Below are positions 656 to 45,255 of a stretch of 46,069 bases of DNA, piece by piece. The stretch covers positions 1-46,069 of the forward strand of contig PEAF01000011.1 of the NCBI GenBank assembly GCA_002753465.1. The letters run 5' to 3'. Each line of letters starts with the position of its first letter. The first letter of the stretch is position 1. The stretch comes from Candidatus Omnitrophota bacterium (GTDB lineage: Bacteria; Omnitrophota; Gorgyraeia; Zapsychrales; Fredricksoniimonadaceae). The notes below the pieces were generated by a model, which saw nothing but the letters and a program-made list of their open reading frames with translations, ran no database searches and had not been told where the DNA came from. The translations under genes were made by a program, and so were the position numbers.

Positions 656-1486
656 ATGCGAGGCCTTTTCTTATTCCTTATCAGTTTTTTCATATGCGTT
701 CATTCATCTGCTCAGGAGATGGATAAGATCGTCGTGTTGCAGGATGAGGTTTTCTTCGTTCAGAATGAATTGACCCAGTTAAAGAAAGCGTTAGCGGAAA
801 AGGACGAGGCGTTCAAGTCAGCTGTGATCGAGAATGCGTCTTCAGCGGCGAAGATCAACAGTCTGCAGCTTTCTTTGCTTCAGCGTGATAATGATCTGCC
901 TCGGCTCATGGAGCAGGCAGGCATGGTTTACCGCGCACAGATCAATGACATGAAAGATCAACTTAAGGCCATGACCTTGACGCTCGCGCAAAAGACGGAA
1001 CAGGTGTCGGCGCTTGAGGGGGAGAAAACTGGCTTGCAGGCCAAGATCGATATGCAGGCGGGTGAAAGGATATCCCTTCGGCAGTCCCTTAAGACGGTGG
1101 CGGATGAGGCGGACGCTCTTAAGCGTGAACTGAGTGAACGCGCGGCACATGAGATGTCAGTAGATCAGGTCAGGGAAAATGAGTTTAAATTACGCCTGTC
1201 TAGGGAGCAGTCATTGATGCAGGAGAAGATCACGGCCGCCAAGAAGCCGATCGAAGATAAGGTTGTTTTGCTTGAAGGGCAGCTGAAGGTTAAGGATGCG
1301 TACTGGACGCAGCGTCTTTCGGACGAAAAAACGCTGCTGGAGGATAAAGTGCATAAGCTTGAACAGCAGATCGCTGTTTTACGCGCGGGCGTGGGGCAGG
1401 AGATCAAACGGGCGCAGGATGCTGCCGCGGCTGAAATTCAGAAGATCAAAGACGAACTGGCTGTTTGCCGGTCCGGGAAGAAATAA
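656..1486 (+). CDS. Secreted coiled-coil protein of unknown function
   Basis: This 276-residue protein starts with a Sec signal peptide (MRGLFLFLISFFICVHSSAQ, cleavage probably after SAQ). The rest is almost entirely charged heptad-like sequence rich in E, K, Q and L, with no recognisable catalytic motif, so it should form a long periplasmic or surface coiled coil. It lies ten bases before a glycosyltransferase gene on the same strand and is probably co-transcribed with it. A structural or scaffolding role at the envelope is plausible but is only inference. I do not recognise a named family. Confidence 0.75.
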   Translation: MRGLFLFLISFFICVHSSAQEMDKIVVLQDEVFFVQNELTQLKKALAEKDEAFKSAVIENASSAAKINSLQLSLLQRDNDLPRLMEQAGMVYRAQINDMKDQLKAMTLTLAQKTEQVSALEGEKTGLQAKIDMQAGERISLRQSLKTVADEADALKRELSERAAHEMSVDQVRENEFKLRLSREQSLMQEKITAAKKPIEDKVVLLEGQLKVKDAYWTQRLSDEKTLLEDKVHKLEQQIAVLRAGVGQEIKRAQDAAAAEIQKIKDELAVCRSGKK

Positions 1487-1495
1487 CGTAATACT

Positions 1496-2728
1496 ATGCG
1501 CATTTCATTTATCGTCGATAGTTTTCCTGCCCTTTCTGAAACGTTCATCCTTAATCAGATGACAGGCCTGATGGATTCCGGTTGCGAGATCAGGATCTTT
1601 GCCGGTGCGCGCTCGTCTGAAAAGATCGTTCATGAGGATGTTGTTCGCCATGGCCTTTTATATCACGTTCAGTACTGGAATGAGCGTCCGGCATCCGTCC
1701 TGGGACGGATCCTTAAGTTTATTTTTATTTTCCCCATACATTTGACGCGCTCCCCGCGCGTTATTCTGCGTTCCATTAATGTGTTCGCTTTTGGCCGTGA
1801 AGCATGGTCGCTGGAGCTTTTTTATATGACCGTGGCTTTTCTTGCCGCGCGTGCAGATGACATCATCATATGTCATCTGCGCTCGAATGGACTGATCGGT
1901 ATTAAAATGAAGCAGATCGGCGCTTTGACAGGCAAGATCGTTACGGTATTCCATATCGAGGACCTCGCGGACCTTGTTAAGAATAAAACAGTCGGGGCTC
2001 TTGAGGATCTTTTTTTAAAGGGGGACTTGTTCCTGCCTGTCAGCCGGTATGCCCAGGAGCGGCTTCTGGAATTAGGGTGTCCTCCGCGCAAGATCGTGGT
2101 GCATCGGATGGGGGTTGATGTCCGGCAGTTTGACGTGAGTGCACGCCGGCGTTTCGGTTCAACCACATTGAAGATCCTGTCGGTGGCGCGTCTTATTGAT
2201 AAAAAGGGTATCGCCTATGCGCTCGAGGCCCTGGCGCTTTTGGAGAACGAGCCGTTCGAGTATGTGATCATCGGCGATGGGCCCTTAAGAGAAATGCTGG
2301 AAATGCAGGCGCGTTCATTTGGCCTTATGCACAAGGTGCGGTTCCTGGGTTGGCAGGATTCGGGGGCGATCCGTCGATATCTTAAAGATGCGGATATTTT
2401 TCTGGCGCCGAGTGTCACAACAGCATCCGGTGACAAGGAAGGGATCCCTGTTGTTTTGATGGAAGCCATGGCCAGCGGCGTTCCCGTTGTAACGACCAGT
2501 AACGGGGCGATCCGCGAGTTGGTTGAGGATGGCCGGACCGGGTTTCTGGTCCCGGAAAAAAATGCGGCTGCACTCGCGGCCAAGTTGCGGATACTGCGTC
2601 AGGATCCGGCTGTGGCCGATGCCGCCTCGCGTGCCGCACGCCGGTTGATCGAGGAGCAGTTCAATATTCAAATACTGAACCAGCATTTGTTGCGGATTCT
2701 AACCCAAACAGCTTATGAAAATGCGTGA
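1496..2728 (+). CDS. Glycosyltransferase family 4 (WcaL/AmsK-like)
   Basis: This 410-residue GT-B enzyme transfers a sugar from a nucleotide donor, probably onto a lipid-linked or surface polysaccharide acceptor. The C-terminal Rossmann half is clear: VARLIDKKG near residue 220, IIGDGPL near 255, and the donor-site segment GDKEGIPVVLMEAMASG around 305-325, ending with GFLVP. The wording 'GDKEGIPVVLMEAMA' is close to colanic-acid type transferases. The first half, beginning RISFIVDSFPALSETFILNQ, is the acceptor domain. The stop overlaps the possible GTG start of the next gene by four bases, so the two are translationally linked. Donor and acceptor sugars cannot be read from sequence. Confidence 0.88.
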   Translation: MRISFIVDSFPALSETFILNQMTGLMDSGCEIRIFAGARSSEKIVHEDVVRHGLLYHVQYWNERPASVLGRILKFIFIFPIHLTRSPRVILRSINVFAFGREAWSLELFYMTVAFLAARADDIIICHLRSNGLIGIKMKQIGALTGKIVTVFHIEDLADLVKNKTVGALEDLFLKGDLFLPVSRYAQERLLELGCPPRKIVVHRMGVDVRQFDVSARRRFGSTTLKILSVARLIDKKGIAYALEALALLENEPFEYVIIGDGPLREMLEMQARSFGLMHKVRFLGWQDSGAIRRYLKDADIFLAPSVTTASGDKEGIPVVLMEAMASGVPVVTTSNGAIRELVEDGRTGFLVPEKNAAALAAKLRILRQDPAVADAASRAARRLIEEQFNIQILNQHLLRILTQTAYENA

Positions 2729-4641
2729 ATGAGCCGATGATCATAAAATTCTTTGATAATTTTGAGGCGATCGGTCCCCAGGCATGGGATGCGCTTGTAT
2801 CTAAAGCACCGACAAAATCGATCTTTCAGACCTATGCCTGGCAGAGGGCATGGTGGCGTGCCTACGGGCAGAGTTCTTCACCGCTTCAGCCGGAGTATGC
2901 TTTGTGCCTGGTCGCTGGTTATGAAGGTGATAATTTGCGCATTGTTTGGCCGCTTGTTCGTCGGGAGGCCGTATTTTATTTTGTGGGCGATGGCATGGCG
3001 GACCGGCTGGATATTATTTATGAAGCCGCGCGCCCTTCTGACCTTCAGGCATTGCTGGCGCCCCTTAAAGAGCGGACAGATTGGCACGCGCTTGAATTGA
3101 ACGGGATCCCGGATACGTCGGTCACGTGGCGTTATTTGAAGGGTTTTTCACGCGCCGCCGGTCTTTTCCCTATGTCCGTGTCTAAAACGCCATTATGGGG
3201 GATCGTCATTCACGATCGAGAAGAGCGCGTCCGCCGGCATCTTCATACGGGATCTTTGGCCAAGCATGCCGGTATCTTTGCCTCAAAAGGCAAAGTCTCG
3301 GCATCTCATCAGGAGGCTCCGGATCACGCTGGCGTTCCGTGGAAGAACTTTTTTACCCAGCATATTCACCGATGGTCGTTGCGTTCTATGCCGGGGATGT
3401 TTGTCAAGCGTGCCGCGCGTGACCTGTGCCGTTATTATGTTGATGATCCGCAGCTGCGTTCAAGCCTGATCTTTACGACGTTATGCCTGAACGGTCAGCC
3501 TGCCGCTTACCATGCCGGATTCTTATATGATCAGGTTTTTTATTGGCATATTCCTTCCTTTGACCTTTCGCTGAAGCGTCTTTGTCCCGATGATGTGCTG
3601 TGGCGTGAAGTCGTGGCGTATGCCTACAAATGCGGCTGTTCTCAGGTGGCTTTTACCTCGTCAGACGAGCCGGTCGTGAGGCGTTTTGCAGACCGCTTGG
3701 GAACGGCGCGCACTGTTAAGATCTTCCGCCTTCGTAAGGAGGAATGGGTGGCGCGCTGGGTACGCTGGGTCAGTAAGATCCCCTGGGTGTCAGGATTTTA
3801 TCGTATGGCATCATCTTTGCTGGAAGCGCTGGGTGCCTGGATTTACCGCAAGAGGATCGTCAAGCAGGCCCGCCTTCAGATGAACGGCATTGATTCTTTT
3901 CAGGACCTTTATCTTCAGCGTGATATGCGCACCAGTGCAGATGCTAATTTATTTAAACCTGAAGCTGAGATCATCCGGCGGTTGCGGCCTGAGCTGAAAG
4001 ATATGTCCATGCTGGATATCGGGGTAGGGTATGGCCGGACCAGTATTTATTTTGCATCGATGGTAAAACGCTATGATGCCATTGACCATGTTCCGGCCAT
4101 GGTGGCCATTGCACAGGCTGATCTTGATGATCTTAAGGAGTGCGGTAATATTGTGCTGGCAGATGCCCGTCAGGTTAAGCCCGGGCCGGCCGGCACATAC
4201 GACTTTATTCTGTTTGCCGGTGAAGGTCTGGACGAATCTTCAGCGGAGGACCGTGTCAGGATCCTGCAGGAGATCCGTCGTGTGGGCCGCGAAGGGGCTC
4301 TGGTCTTTTTTTCATCCAGGAATTTACAAAGTTTGACCTTAAAGACAGCGCGCGGGGCTTTGGATTTTATTTCACGCTGGCGGCGGCGTTTTTTAATGTC
4401 GACAGCGAATGATAACTTATACCGTTCGCGCTGCCAGGAGTCGGTTTATCTTTTTGATGCTTCTGGAGGGTATCACCTGCCGGTTTATTACGGGACACCT
4501 AAAGAGCAGTCGCGCGTGCTCAAAGAGCTTGGTTTTCACGATGTCCGTGTTTTTTCCGGGCGATCAGGGCTGGAAGTGCGTGACTGGCGCCGCTGGGACA
4601 AGTTGACGGATGAAACGCTCTATTATCTGTGCCGTGTGTAG
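2725..4641 (+). CDS. Fusion of FemAB/BioF2-like acyltransferase and SAM-dependent methyltransferase
   Basis: This 638-residue protein has two domains. Residues about 1-350 resemble the GNAT-fold 'BioF2-like' acyltransferases (FQTYAWQRAWW near the N-terminus; PAAYHAGFLYDQVFYW and the C-terminal LGTARTVKIFRLR strand), which occur in exopolysaccharide loci. Residues about 390-638 form a class I methyltransferase with motif I MLDIGVGYGRTS near 430, acidic residue ID about 20 residues later, and DFILFAGEG as the motif IV region. The ORF start GTG at 2725 overlaps the upstream stop; ATG at 2737 is an alternative, and neither has a clear ribosome site. It may acylate and methylate a sugar or peptide group on surface material, which is inferred from context only. 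Confidence 0.75.
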   Translation: MNEPMIIKFFDNFEAIGPQAWDALVSKAPTKSIFQTYAWQRAWWRAYGQSSSPLQPEYALCLVAGYEGDNLRIVWPLVRREAVFYFVGDGMADRLDIIYEAARPSDLQALLAPLKERTDWHALELNGIPDTSVTWRYLKGFSRAAGLFPMSVSKTPLWGIVIHDREERVRRHLHTGSLAKHAGIFASKGKVSASHQEAPDHAGVPWKNFFTQHIHRWSLRSMPGMFVKRAARDLCRYYVDDPQLRSSLIFTTLCLNGQPAAYHAGFLYDQVFYWHIPSFDLSLKRLCPDDVLWREVVAYAYKCGCSQVAFTSSDEPVVRRFADRLGTARTVKIFRLRKEEWVARWVRWVSKIPWVSGFYRMASSLLEALGAWIYRKRIVKQARLQMNGIDSFQDLYLQRDMRTSADANLFKPEAEIIRRLRPELKDMSMLDIGVGYGRTSIYFASMVKRYDAIDHVPAMVAIAQADLDDLKECGNIVLADARQVKPGPAGTYDFILFAGEGLDESSAEDRVRILQEIRRVGREGALVFFSSRNLQSLTLKTARGALDFISRWRRRFLMSTANDNLYRSRCQESVYLFDASGGYHLPVYYGTPKEQSRVLKELGFHDVRVFSGRSGLEVRDWRRWDKLTDETLYYLCRV

Positions 4642-12544: not shown

Positions 12545-12599
12545 AATTACGGGGACATGTACCAAATTGCTTTTTAATTGGGTACGTGTCCCCGTAATT
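12545..12599. repeat. Palindromic dispersed repeat, copy 1
   Basis: This is a 55-base element with 24-base arms around a 7-base loop, three imperfect positions, and ends in AATTAC/GTAATT. Its core GGGGACATGTACC is shared with copies at 15833, 33639 and 44395. It begins 15 bases after the receptor stop and could act as a 3' mRNA hairpin, but lacks a proper U-tract. Confidence 0.85.
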
Positions 12600-12775
12600 A
12601 TTCCCCTAAATACTCACACTATCAATCAGTTACAACATTTCAAGATAACGTTACCAGACAGGGTGTCATCTACCCTTGTTTTAGTTATCTTTTTACATAT
12701 ATATTTATACGTGGTGGAGGTCGTTGTGCAGGAAGCGTATTCTATATATAGGTGTGGCCTAAGGGGCGGCCGATT
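12600..12775 (+). other. AT-rich intergenic segment with possible promoter
   Basis: This 176-base stretch between repeat copy 1 and the large secreted protein gene holds no convincing gene. TTGTGC (12725-12730) followed by a TATATA run around 12742-12750 is a weak promoter candidate. TAAGGGG near 12760 is the ribosome site for ATG 12776. Confidence 0.35.
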
Positions 12776-15700
12776 ATGCGGAAGATAACATCATTCTTTA
12801 TCCTTATAGCATTTGTCCTGAGTTGTGTGATGCCCCCGCAGGGCTTTGCCCAGTCATTAACAGCTATTGGTTTGATGCCGGCACCTGGTACCCAGGTGAG
12901 TTTGACAGGTTCTTATACGCCTACGCACCTCAAAGGCATGGTGATCAATCCCAATGATCCATTCAAATTCGATTTTATCGTCTACCGTGGTGATGAAAAG
13001 CTTACACCCGAACAGAAACAGACCGAATATCCCAAGTTGATCAAATATTTTCTGGCGTCTTTGTCCGTTCCTGATACAGATCAGTGGGTCAACTTATCGC
13101 CTTACGAAAAAGAGCGGATTATCCCGGATAATTTTGGATTGACGGAGATGGGGCGTGACCTTTTGGCGCAGGATTACCTTCTTAAACAGGTCGCAGCATC
13201 GTTGACCAACCCCGATACAGATCTGGGTAAACAGTTTTGGGATGAAGTTTACGCCAAGTCGTATGAGAAATTTGGAACGACGGATATCCCTACGGATGTG
13301 TTCAATAAAGTTTGGATCACGCCGGATAAAGCTGTTGTCTTTGAAAAGGGGAATGCCGTGGTCATCATCGAGCATCATTTAAAAGTGCAGATGGAGAGCG
13401 ATTATAGGGCTATGCAGATGAACGCGGCCACGACGGCAACAGAACAGGATAATGAAGCGGTAAGGATCTCCAAGCAGGTGATGCGCGAGGTCATTATCCC
13501 GGCGATCGAAAAAGAGGTGAATGAAGGCAAGAGCTTTGCTCCGGTGCGGCAGGTTTATGGCGGCATGCTTTTGGCCACGTGGTATAAACGCGCACTCAGG
13601 GAATCGATTTTGGGCAAGGTTTATGCGGATCAGGGCAAGGTCAAGGGTATTGACCAGGACCCGGCGAATAATCAGCAGATTTATCAGGAATATGTCAAGG
13701 CGTTCAAGGTGGGCGTTTTTAATATGATCAAGGAAGATGTGGACCGCTACTCGCAGGAGATGATCCCGCGCAAGTATTTCTCCGGCGGTCTAAAGAATGA
13801 TTTTGCTCAGGTGTTAGTGATCGACCATACTCAGGCCGGTGAGGTGAAAGCACGAGAGATGATCAGCGATGACGACATCGTTAAGACTGAAATGAAGAAT
13901 TCAGACAGCTCAGCTCAGGACCGTGCCAGGGATTGGGTTACTGGTCAAGACGGCACGCTTATGGAACGATTTTCGAACGAAGGTATGCAGGCGTCGATTG
14001 ATCATGTTTGGAGTAACCCTGTCCTGAAGGAAGATATTTTAAGTATGGCAGGGTTAAAGGAATTGAAGAATCCCAGGATAATGTATGGCGGGCAGGGAAG
14101 CACAAAAGATGTTGCTTTTATTAAAGGGCAGGATGCTGACGGGAAATCGATTTCCATTGCGGTGAGGTTTTATAAATCGAATCATACGCCTTTTAAGAAG
14201 ATCGATGCGTTTGCGCAAGAGGAAGTTGCCGCGAATCTTGAAGACACGACTTCCGTGAAAGTATTCGGGTATCATTCATTTGCAGATTACTACAACAATA
14301 AGGCTATCAATGAGCTGGAGGATACTGTATTTACGGGCGCTGGATATGCAGGATTTTCAGTTGGTCAATATCTTCCATATAAGGTGACCGCATTAGAGAA
14401 CTCAGGGTTAAAGAGCAGTAATGTATATGCAGGGTTAATAGCTACGACTCTTTTAAGGTGGCTATTAAAAGGTGAATTTATGGGTGATCTTAAATTTGAG
14501 AATTTCGGTGTCGATACTGACGGTGCGGTTAAGATCATTGATACAGGGGATATGCATCAGGTGAGTTATGCGGACAGTGTTGTCAATGAACTGATATCAT
14601 TTTTCGAGAAAAAGGGATTATTAACTGATCCTGTTCAGAAGAAAGAGATATTAAAAGGGTTTAATTTGGGGCTGTCAAGGTTTTGGGATTTACAGCCTGA
14701 AAGTTTCCAAAAGTTGATGGACGGCCCTGATGAGCTCAATGCCATCCTTAATATTGAAACTAGTGTTAATAATTATATTAATCCCGGGGATCATGCTCAA
14801 GTTGATGCCGCGATGCAAGGATGGCGGGGGACGCAGAAGAAGTTCGAACGCCGGAAAAACACCGAAGCATATATTATGAGAGCCCTCAAGGCTGCTGGTG
14901 TTGCTGTTGCGGGGGTTGCCATGTATGGGATTATTAATTTGGGTACTTCAGCCGCAGCGCAGAGAAGTTATCCGGTGCCGAACATGCCAACCGTGAAGGT
15001 TGTTAAAGTTTATGATCAGAAAGGCCATGCTACGGCGGTTTCCATTGATGAAGCCAGTCCTGAGAATAATGCTGTTTTGAGTAAAGACCGTGCGATGAAG
15101 TCAACATTAGTGGCTGCCGCGATCTTGTTGGCTACGTTTATGAATGTTTCTTTGGCATCTGCGGCCGGTATTAATACGAAGACTCCTGATTCTCAGGAGT
15201 TGTCGGTAAAGAAAGAAATTACCGCTGATCCGATATTAGTAGAGTTGAATCGACTGCAAAGGGGTGCTGTTAATCCTTTCTTGATCCATAAGCAGGGCAA
15301 AGGATCATCAGGTTTTATGTCGATAAGCTTGGATAAATTAAGAGAAAACCTTAAGAATCCCGACACACTTACTGTGTTTTTTGGTTTAATGATGAAGAAT
15401 GTTTATTCGAGTTTTGAAGTTCCTGAAAGTGTTATGCCTTCTGATATTGTTAAAGAGCTTAAAGGCCTCACGAAGGGACTAACCATTGAAGGATCAAATA
15501 TTTCACCCCTCTTGCAAGAAGCGGTTAAGTTTGACGCACGCGACATTGCCAAGACGGAGGCCGTTAAACTTTATTATGATGCTAATAATGGCAATGAGAT
15601 CGGGGTCTTATTCTTTGATCGTATTTCTTCGGCAGATGTTAAAGAGAACGTGGGTGGTATTGACATGAATGCCGCTAATCTGAACATGCAGATCAAGCGT

Positions 15701-15820
15701 GACGGGGCTGGTGTTCCATTGCCTGTCAGCCAGCAGGATCTTGAGAATATCCGCATTGACGGCCTTGTGCCCGTGATCCTGGATATTAAACCGGCAGCGG
15801 GGATACCGTTATTTAGTTGA
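12776..15820 (+). CDS. Large secreted multidomain protein with a protein-kinase-like domain
   Basis: ATG 12776 follows TAAGGGG and starts a signal peptide (MRKITSFFILIAFVLSCVMPPQGFAQ); the ORF start at 12752 is less likely. The 1014-residue product has an N-terminal region of about 400 residues (for example YFLASLSV, NLSPYEKERIIP, EMGRDLLAQDYLLKQ). A kinase-like segment of about 430-660 follows: GGQG at 438-441, AVRFYK at 462-467, DLKFEN at 571-576 and DTG at 589-591. Two hydrophobic helices lie near 703-728 and 775-797. The C-terminal tail reads GGIDMNAANLNMQIKRDG and VPVILDIKP. From memory the N- and C-terminal styles recur in large Omnitrophota proteins. Its role is unknown. Confidence 0.7.
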   Translation: MRKITSFFILIAFVLSCVMPPQGFAQSLTAIGLMPAPGTQVSLTGSYTPTHLKGMVINPNDPFKFDFIVYRGDEKLTPEQKQTEYPKLIKYFLASLSVPDTDQWVNLSPYEKERIIPDNFGLTEMGRDLLAQDYLLKQVAASLTNPDTDLGKQFWDEVYAKSYEKFGTTDIPTDVFNKVWITPDKAVVFEKGNAVVIIEHHLKVQMESDYRAMQMNAATTATEQDNEAVRISKQVMREVIIPAIEKEVNEGKSFAPVRQVYGGMLLATWYKRALRESILGKVYADQGKVKGIDQDPANNQQIYQEYVKAFKVGVFNMIKEDVDRYSQEMIPRKYFSGGLKNDFAQVLVIDHTQAGEVKAREMISDDDIVKTEMKNSDSSAQDRARDWVTGQDGTLMERFSNEGMQASIDHVWSNPVLKEDILSMAGLKELKNPRIMYGGQGSTKDVAFIKGQDADGKSISIAVRFYKSNHTPFKKIDAFAQEEVAANLEDTTSVKVFGYHSFADYYNNKAINELEDTVFTGAGYAGFSVGQYLPYKVTALENSGLKSSNVYAGLIATTLLRWLLKGEFMGDLKFENFGVDTDGAVKIIDTGDMHQVSYADSVVNELISFFEKKGLLTDPVQKKEILKGFNLGLSRFWDLQPESFQKLMDGPDELNAILNIETSVNNYINPGDHAQVDAAMQGWRGTQKKFERRKNTEAYIMRALKAAGVAVAGVAMYGIINLGTSAAAQRSYPVPNMPTVKVVKVYDQKGHATAVSIDEASPENNAVLSKDRAMKSTLVAAAILLATFMNVSLASAAGINTKTPDSQELSVKKEITADPILVELNRLQRGAVNPFLIHKQGKGSSGFMSISLDKLRENLKNPDTLTVFFGLMMKNVYSSFEVPESVMPSDIVKELKGLTKGLTIEGSNISPLLQEAVKFDARDIAKTEAVKLYYDANNGNEIGVLFFDRISSADVKENVGGIDMNAANLNMQIKRDGAGVPLPVSQQDLENIRIDGLVPVILDIKPAAGIPLFS

Positions 15821-15832
15821 TGATTGACATGT

Positions 15833-15887
15833 AATTAAGGGGACACGTACCAAATTAAAAGGTAATTTGGTACGTGTCCCCTTAATT
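15833..15887. repeat. Palindromic dispersed repeat, copy 2 (perfect arms)
   Basis: This 55-base element has perfect 24-base arms (15833-15856 and 15864-15887) and a 7-base loop. It lies between two convergent genes, ending three bases before the metH stop, so it may stabilise or terminate both transcripts. The variable outer pair is A:T here (AATTAAGGGG/CCCCTTAATT). Confidence 0.95.
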
Positions 15888-33638: not shown

Positions 33639-33691
33639 GCGGGGGCATGTTTCAAATTCGTTGGTCGAATTTGGTACGTGTCTCTGTAATT
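33639..33691. repeat. Palindromic dispersed repeat, copy 3 (degraded left arm)
   Basis: The right half (CGAATTTGGTACGTG...TAATT) matches the other copies. The left half (GCGGGGGCATGTTTCAAATTCG) has several mismatches, so only the apical stem pairs fully. The element ends four bases before the ATG of the fibronectin-III protein. Confidence 0.7.
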
Positions 33692-33695
33692 TTTA

Positions 33696-43309: not shown

Positions 43310-44383
43310 ATGATCCCACAATTAATTAGATTTATTAAAACACTCTTTGATAATTTTCTTGGCATGTTCTCCAATGACATGGGCATTGACCTTGGTACAG
43401 CGACTACGCTTGTTTTTGTGAAGGGCGAGGGCGTTGTGCTGTGCGAACCGTCCGTTGTGGCCATTGAAAAAGATACCAACCGTGTGGTCGCGGTAGGCGA
43501 TGAGGCCAAGCGCATGCTCGGTCGTACGCCGGATAATATTATCGCTATTCGTCCGATGCGTGACGGCGTCATCTCGGATCCGGAAGTGACCGAGGCCATG
43601 CTTAAATATTTTATCAAGAAAGTCCAGCCCCGTCGTTTTTTGGTCAGGCCCTCCATTGTCATTGCGATCCCGCCCGAGATCAGTGAAGTTGAGAAGCGCG
43701 CGGTCATTGATTCCGCGATCCATGCCGGTGCACGTAATGTTATTTTGATCGAGCAGCCCAAGGCGGCGGCTATCGGCGTCGGCTTACCGGTACAGGAACC
43801 GGGCGGTAACATGGTCATTGATATCGGCGGCGGTACGACGGACTTTGCTGTTATTTCACTCGGCGGCATTGTTTATGCCAAGTCCATCAAGGTTGCGGGT
43901 GATGAGATGGATATGGCCATTATGGAATATCTGCGGCGCACCTATAACATTATGATCGGTGAACGCACGTCGGAAGAGATCAAGATCCGCATCGGTTCTG
44001 CGTATCCTCTGGAAGAAGAATTGAACATGGATGTGCGCGGGCGTGATCTGATCGCTGGTCTGCCTAAAACGATCTCTATCACGTCTGTTGAGATCCGTGA
44101 AGCTCTGGCGGATACGGTACAGGCGATCGTGGATGCGTCAAAATCAACACTTGAGCATACCCCGCCTGAACTTTCAGCGGATCTTATTGATCGCGGCATT
44201 GTTATGGCTGGCGGTGGCTCACTGCTACGCGGGCTGGATAAGCGCATCGCGGATGAAACAGGCTTGCCCGTGCATGTGGCGGATGACCCGACCATCGCTG
44301 TTGTTATGGGTACGGGCGATACGCTCAATATGCCGGCGCATATGCGCAAGCGTCTCATGGCGCAGACCAAATTGGCATTTTAA
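43310..44383 (+). CDS. mreB: Rod-shape-determining actin homologue MreB
   Basis: At 357 residues it is slightly longer than usual because of an N-terminal extension, MIPQLIRFIKTLFDNFLGMF, that probably forms the membrane-binding amphipathic helix. The actin-fold nucleotide motifs are present: DMGIDLGTATTLVFV (phosphate 1), MVIDIGGGTTDFAVISLGGI (phosphate 2) and GIVMAGGGSLLRGLDKRI (adenosine). Also typical are PSVVAIEKDT and IEQPKAAAIGVGLPV. It forms filaments under the inner membrane that guide cylindrical wall synthesis, with MreC, MreD and PBP2 encoded directly downstream. Confidence 0.97.
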   Translation: MIPQLIRFIKTLFDNFLGMFSNDMGIDLGTATTLVFVKGEGVVLCEPSVVAIEKDTNRVVAVGDEAKRMLGRTPDNIIAIRPMRDGVISDPEVTEAMLKYFIKKVQPRRFLVRPSIVIAIPPEISEVEKRAVIDSAIHAGARNVILIEQPKAAAIGVGLPVQEPGGNMVIDIGGGTTDFAVISLGGIVYAKSIKVAGDEMDMAIMEYLRRTYNIMIGERTSEEIKIRIGSAYPLEEELNMDVRGRDLIAGLPKTISITSVEIREALADTVQAIVDASKSTLEHTPPELSADLIDRGIVMAGGGSLLRGLDKRIADETGLPVHVADDPTIAVVMGTGDTLNMPAHMRKRLMAQTKLAF

Positions 44384-44394
44384 TACCGTACGTC

Positions 44395-44453
44395 AATTAT
44401 GGGGACACGTACCAAATTCGCTTCACGAATTAATGGTACATGTCCCCATAATT
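44395..44453. repeat. Palindromic dispersed repeat, copy 4
   Basis: This is a 59-base element between mreB and mreC, with arms ending AATTATGGGG/CCCCATAATT (the variable pair is T:A) and core GGGGACACGTACC. Minor mismatches lie near the loop. Its position inside the conserved mre cluster could lower downstream mRNA, but no U-tract is present. Confidence 0.9.
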
Positions 44454-44475
44454 GTAAATCATCGGTTTAGCGCAT

Positions 44476-45255
44476 ATGTTCAACAAGATCCCCAAACAAT
44501 TCATTTATCTTGTCGTTATTGTTGCGCCCTTCTGGCTGTTATTTTTCAATTCATCTTTCTGGCACGGATTGAAGCTTAAGGCGATGGGGGCTGCGGCGTC
44601 GGCGATCAGCGTTGCAAATACGCCGCTTGAAGAGCTGCAGATCCTTCTTTCTTACCGCAGTACCTATACACAATATCAAAAACTTCAACGCGAGAATTTA
44701 CAACTCAAGGCCAGGGCCATTGACTTTGATGAAACCCTGGGTGAGAACGTGCGGATGGAAACGCTTTTGGGCCTTAAGGCGCGTGAAAATTTTACCACAA
44801 CCGCCGCGCATGTGATCGCGCGCGACCCTGCCAGTTGGAACTCATCTTTTATGATCGATAAGGGCCGTATGCAGGGCATAAAATCCGGCATGCCCGTGAT
44901 CAATGCCCTGGGTGTTGTCGGCAAGGTCGCTGAGGTTTCCAGATCATCTTCCAAGGTTATTCTGGTGAATGACCCCGGCTTTAGCGTAGCCGTGGTCAAT
45001 CGCCGTTCGCGCGAAGCAGGCTTACTCAGCGGATCGCTTTCGGGGGAGTGCCGCCTCTCGTATCTGTCGGCTGACAGTGATGTGGAAACGGGGGATGAAC
45101 TTGTTACAGCCACGTTGAGCACCTCTTTTCCGGAGGGGCTCCTGGTGGGTACCGTTCTGGAGGTTTATGCACCGGGCGGTATATCTGACGCCCGTGCGCG
45201 CGTGAAGCCAACGATCGATGTGGCGAGGATCGAAGAAGTTCTGGTTGTTAAATAA
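44476..45255 (+). CDS. mreC: Rod-shape-determining protein MreC
   Basis: This 259-residue bitopic protein has an N-terminal membrane helix (LVVIVAPFWLLFFNSSFW), a coiled coil with YQKLQRENLQLKARAI, and the periplasmic MreC beta domain: HVIARDPASWNSSFMIDKGRMQGIKSGMPVINALGVVGKV, VILVNDPGFSVAVVNRRSREAGLLSG and VETGDELVTATLSTSFPEGLLVGTV. It links cytoplasmic MreB to periplasmic PBP2. The start at ATG 44476 has no strong ribosome site. Its stop overlaps mreD by one base. Confidence 0.95.
   Translation: MFNKIPKQFIYLVVIVAPFWLLFFNSSFWHGLKLKAMGAAASAISVANTPLEELQILLSYRSTYTQYQKLQRENLQLKARAIDFDETLGENVRMETLLGLKARENFTTTAAHVIARDPASWNSSFMIDKGRMQGIKSGMPVINALGVVGKVAEVSRSSSKVILVNDPGFSVAVVNRRSREAGLLSGSLSGECRLSYLSADSDVETGDELVTATLSTSFPEGLLVGTVLEVYAPGGISDARARVKPTIDVARIEEVLVVK

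Follow-up and report, generated by a model that had tools for sequence, protein, structure and literature searches.

A family of near-identical palindromes recurs along a 46,069-nt stretch of DNA (the window) from an Omnitrophota draft genome (2.18 Mb, 64% complete), and the base pair at the outer edge of the arms differs from copy to copy. What are these elements, and what causes their two arms to change together?

Hairpin copies in the window and the host genome

All of the window copies share GGGGACAYGTACC arms. The first (12545-12599; AATTACGGGGACATGTACC...GGTACGTGTCCCCGTAATT) begins 15 nt past the stop codon of a TonB-receptor gene and consists of AATTAC-GGGGACATGTACC arms with a C:G outer pair and, on the plus strand, a T.G at arm position 8. 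The second (15833-15887; AATTAAGGGGACACGTACC...GGTACGTGTCCCCTTAATT) falls in the space separating a 1022-aa ORF from the convergent metH gene. Its outer pair is A:T and its arms are fully paired with C/C at position 8, making it the sole perfectly paired copy found in the host genome. The neighbouring ORF (12752-15817) has no Pfam match. The third copy (44395-44453; AATTATGGGGACACGTACC...GGTACATGTCCCCATAATT) sits between mreB and mreC and has a T:A outer pair and a plus-strand C.A mismatch at position 8. A fourth, decayed copy (~33639-33692), again 15 nt past a stop codon, in this case of a nucleoside phosphorylase gene, carries substitutions in both arms and retains a C:G outer pair and the T.G at position 8. 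A prior sequence-only reading had reported an outer pair that is C:G, A:T and T:A in the three intact copies, always complementary, as well as a damaged copy at 33639, and the sequences bear it out on both points. The arms are nevertheless not perfectly complementary, as position 8 (GGGGACA[Y]) pairs properly only in the second of the three intact copies.

No short-range inverted repeat in the window is stronger than the three intact copies, whose folding z-scores are -6.9 to -12.1. The hairpins have no match in Rfam, and the flanks of the four window copies show no consistent 3' T tract of the kind that marks an intrinsic terminator.

In the host genome there are 20 occurrences of the exact arm GGGGACAYGTACC and 0 of the reversed control; counting partial copies, the total comes to ~11 elements. 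These are scattered single hairpins with near-identical cores, and none forms a doublet. Every one of the ~11 copies read has complementary bases just outside GGGG, so the regularity seen in the window holds when copies of the core are gathered genome-wide. Three copies (L004, L017 and L019) have identical 47-nt cores and outer pairs of either AT/AT or TC/GA, that is, two adjacent pairs that are both compensated. Read by eye, 8 of the ~11 copies lie no more than ~25 nt from a stop codon. Two are in frame inside ORFs, where one lies at a hypervariable loop in one protein of a large paralogous family and the other occupies a glycosyltransferase linker. Because the paralogs are hypervariable at the loop of the in-frame copy in L017, neither the insertion boundaries nor an exact empty site can be set there. 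The family itself (L242; L207, L237-L252, L224, L229, L233) has 2 to 77 matches per genome, and its hypervariable loop, immediately before 'RLIKYFLASLTVP', has palindromes that differ by copy: L224 and L229 have the GTAGAGACGC type, L233 a different one and L242 the GGGGACA type. Palindromes in frame within protein genes are also a feature of the Rickettsia palindromic elements.

The mreB-mreC gap of the host spans 92 nt and holds the 59-nt hairpin copy. Among the 23 other genomes read, none has such a hairpin at this junction, although MreB of the nearest is 92% identical; the copy is thus lineage-specific. Other palindromes are present at the junction in G004, which belongs to the same genus, and in G006 and G028. 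The junction (window 44383-44476; L312, L314, L317) contains palindromic repeats that differ by relative, a pattern suggestive of a favoured insertion site.

Covariation of the arms

A search pattern that specified only AATT, GGGGACA and a single C in each arm recovered 35 distinct elements from 384 Omnitrophota genomes. Immediately outside GGGG, 28 of the 35 have a Watson-Crick pair, compared with a shuffled mean of 10.7 and with none of 2000 shuffles reaching 28. Shuffling within genomes gives the same picture (23/27 paired, mean 15.9; 2/5000 shuffles), and the free inner stretch, positions 2-5, is paired in 29-33 of the 35 elements. Since copies share ancestry, all of these counts overstate the number of independent events. 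Of 112 exact-core hairpins sampled from multiple phyla, however, only 32 have complementary bases at the outer position, near chance. Pairing beyond GGGG is therefore specific to some lineages, and an outer pair that covaries everywhere was rejected. The covariation test proposed from the sequence alone thus succeeds for both outer and inner positions among the Omnitrophota elements, but its outer-pair component does not carry over to other phyla.

A conserved non-pair at arm position 8

Position 8 behaves differently. Among the 35 Omnitrophota elements it pairs no more often than after shuffling, and when shuffling is confined to single genomes, all shuffles match or exceed the observed pairing. 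We collected 160 exact-core hairpins from 34 genomes with a pattern that admitted both C and T at this position of each arm. The two arms differ, one having C and the other T, in 142 of them, and such hairpins form the majority in 28 of the 34 genomes; independent arms would not be expected to give more than half, and the hairpins share descent, so these counts are not independent events. The loops vary among the exact-core hairpins, though descent from asymmetric founders contributes to the C/T count. In inverted doublets, nearly all of them from Caulobacterales, 34 of 36 close pairs follow the order T-C / C-T with the T arms outermost, and in such doublets the arms of the whole pair make a matched inverted repeat.

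The C/T non-pair presents a G.T wobble on one strand and a C.A mismatch on the opposite strand. When both strands of the two asymmetric window copies were folded, the G.T strand was more stable by 1.8-2.6 kcal/mol. The foot of the hairpin carries no GTAG (GTRG); instead, it reads AATTNN in Omnitrophota and varies in other groups. Canonical REPs have a GTAG tag that these arms do not, so the base at position 8 may mark the end or strand polarity, and a single fixed mismatch may allow an enzyme to distinguish the two ends or strands. Related transposases are strand-specific and contact stem irregularities (Corneloup et al. 2021, PMC8266576). On this hypothesis, the C/T non-pair would meet the need for strand recognition in a palindrome without GTAG. 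We tentatively propose a GTAG-less class of REPs, spread over Omnitrophota, Caulobacterales, Aminicenantes, Acidobacteria and others, in which polarity could reside in one non-pair of an otherwise perfect palindrome, with C inside and T outside, and could be read by subclass 2.1 RAYTs, which have been thought to lack REP partners.

Transposase genes with the same ends

RAYT genes (PF01797) bracketed by the exact hairpin, T outermost, occur in Caulobacterales (L276) and Aminicenantes (L284). A Caulobacter RAYT (L283) is bracketed by the compensated hairpin variant GGGGACAYGCACT, and in Rhodospirillaceae (L145) the gene has a complete hairpin on each side, with compensatory differences between the two cores. 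RAYTs from Clostridia (L270) and from the host's own Omnitrophota family (L185 and L189) have the same arm as a terminal inverted repeat (TIR), with T replacing the last C in L185. The outer flanks are complementary even where the TIRs are a ~700-nt gene apart (L270, L188).

One Y1 transposase gene was detected in the host genome, on contig C131. It encodes a protein of ~224 aa with NHVH and YVELNP motifs that scores 55 bits against PF01797 and 64 bits against NCBIfam NF047646, under the cut-off of 80. The gene is flanked by inverted TTTCGGGTACACGTACAAAACACC repeats, whose arm, GGGTACACGTAC, is related but not identical to GGGGACAYGTACC. This 64% complete draft yielded no RAYT whose ends are exactly GGGGACACGTACC; the cognate gene of the hairpins may be absent from the assembly or have been lost. 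In a tree of 38 RAYTs, a single group (86/96) unites the genes with GGGGACA-type ends and includes the host gene, which clusters with L185, L189, L270 and L284 in a well supported subgroup. The sequence-only reading had likened the palindromes to REPs and suggested looking for an IS200/RAYT-type gene flanked by the same hairpin. Such PF01797 genes do exist outside the window, in L276 and L284, and in the host with the related arm only.

Around the C131 gene (L022; G000:C131:27500-31663, positions 1479-3284 and 3368-4042), several GGGTACACGTAC repeats and the RAYT gene itself break up RHS-like coding fragments, and some of the repeats seem to be translated in frame. Other RAYTs of the host's Omnitrophota family (L192, L193, L199 and L205) have flanking GTAGGGGC repeats, so both GTAG-type REPs and the GGGGACA type are present in this family.

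Origin of the hairpins

The palindromes are very probably non-autonomous REP/REPIN-like mobile units, with arms that are the TIRs of a TIRYT-type (GGGGWSAS, TnpAY1 subclass 2.1) family of Y1 HUH transposases. RAYT genes in several phyla are bracketed by the same hairpin or arm, the arms covary and the mreB-mreC copy is lineage-specific. The RAYT would excise or copy the folded single strand and rejoin it elsewhere. Each transposase lineage would recognise its own paired end sequence, so that the arms change together, while the C/T non-pair, with T on the outer side of the doublet, would provide polarity, making end and strand distinguishable. The low copy number in the host (~11) and the lack of a RAYT with exact ends in its draft genome are points against this reading. 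In a variant of this explanation, the C131 RAYT mobilises the window hairpins in trans. This is possible but rather doubtful: it is the sole RAYT detected in the host, belongs to the same subgroup as the GGGGACACGTACC RAYTs and has a hairpin copy ~2.5 kb away, yet its arm differs at the fourth G and its TIRs run on as AAAACACC, not CAAATT.

The covariation itself had been attributed to either selection for pairing or a copying mechanism that regenerates arms. Fold-back template switching (quasipalindrome correction), which copies one arm onto the other with no selection for pairing, would account for the identical 47-nt cores with two compensated adjacent pairs, a change that is hard to reach via single mutations. 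Such correction should, however, wipe out the non-pair at position 8, which is instead kept in most exact-core hairpins, and flanks are complementary across an entire gene as well as within hairpins. With one stem position conserved as a non-pair, simple arm regeneration is disfavoured as the main cause of compensation, and we consider template switching improbable. Hairpins held by selection on RNA pairing, as transcription terminators or mRNA-end stabilisers, would fit the strong folding and the proximity to stop codons. Against this are the lack of a consistent T tract and of an Rfam match, the two copies inside ORFs and the bracketing of RAYT genes, and terminators would not be expected to keep near-identical sequence and the same non-pair across phyla. 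This reading is thus quite unlikely, although a secondary role of this kind may exist. That the hairpins are operator sites of a DNA-binding protein is barely credible. They are palindromic and multi-copy, but they mostly follow genes or lie in ORFs rather than preceding genes, they bracket RAYT genes, and their arm sequence varies while pairing stays, which points to pairing and not to a fixed binding sequence.

Relation to known systems

Among the papers searched, none contains GGGGACACGTACC and none mentions RAYT together with Omnitrophica. Among the closest known elements to the mobile units proposed here are TIRtrons, in which RAYT-like genes (TIRYT) are flanked by GGGGWSAS TIRs (Di Nocera et al. 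2013, PMC3733652). As there, the GGGGACAC arms fit GGGGWSAS, and the TIR families described there are moderately abundant and some are dimeric. Y1/RAYT genes bracketed by the same repeat are found in other genomes, and the transposase is of subclass 2.1 by motifs (NHVH, Y--LNP) and length. The cross-phylum GGGGACAYGTACC hairpin, its covariation, the non-pair at position 8 and the T-outside rule are particular to the present elements when compared with the passages on TIRtrons considered here.

Similarities also extend to REPINs, in which compensatory changes were noted previously (Bertels and Rainey 2011, PMC3116915). Both fold into hairpins, associate with RAYTs and show compensatory changes, and the close pairs of the present elements, nearly all from Caulobacterales, resemble REPIN doublets in their inverted arrangement, whereas the elements described here lack the GTAG tag and the host copies are single hairpins. 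Corneloup et al. 2021 (PMC8266576) asked how Y1 transposases achieve strand-specific recognition of near-perfect palindromes, and a natural family with one conserved non-pair across many phyla makes the question directly testable.

Most TIRtrons were placed in TnpAY1 subclass 2.1 by Quentin et al. 2018 (PMC6006769), who found no REP-like sequences beside those genes. The host RAYT resembles this subclass in its NHVH and YVELNP motifs and its length of ~224 aa. In contrast to that survey, such RAYTs here have bracketing hairpins and doublets, and subclass 2.1 would thereby gain a REP-like partner.
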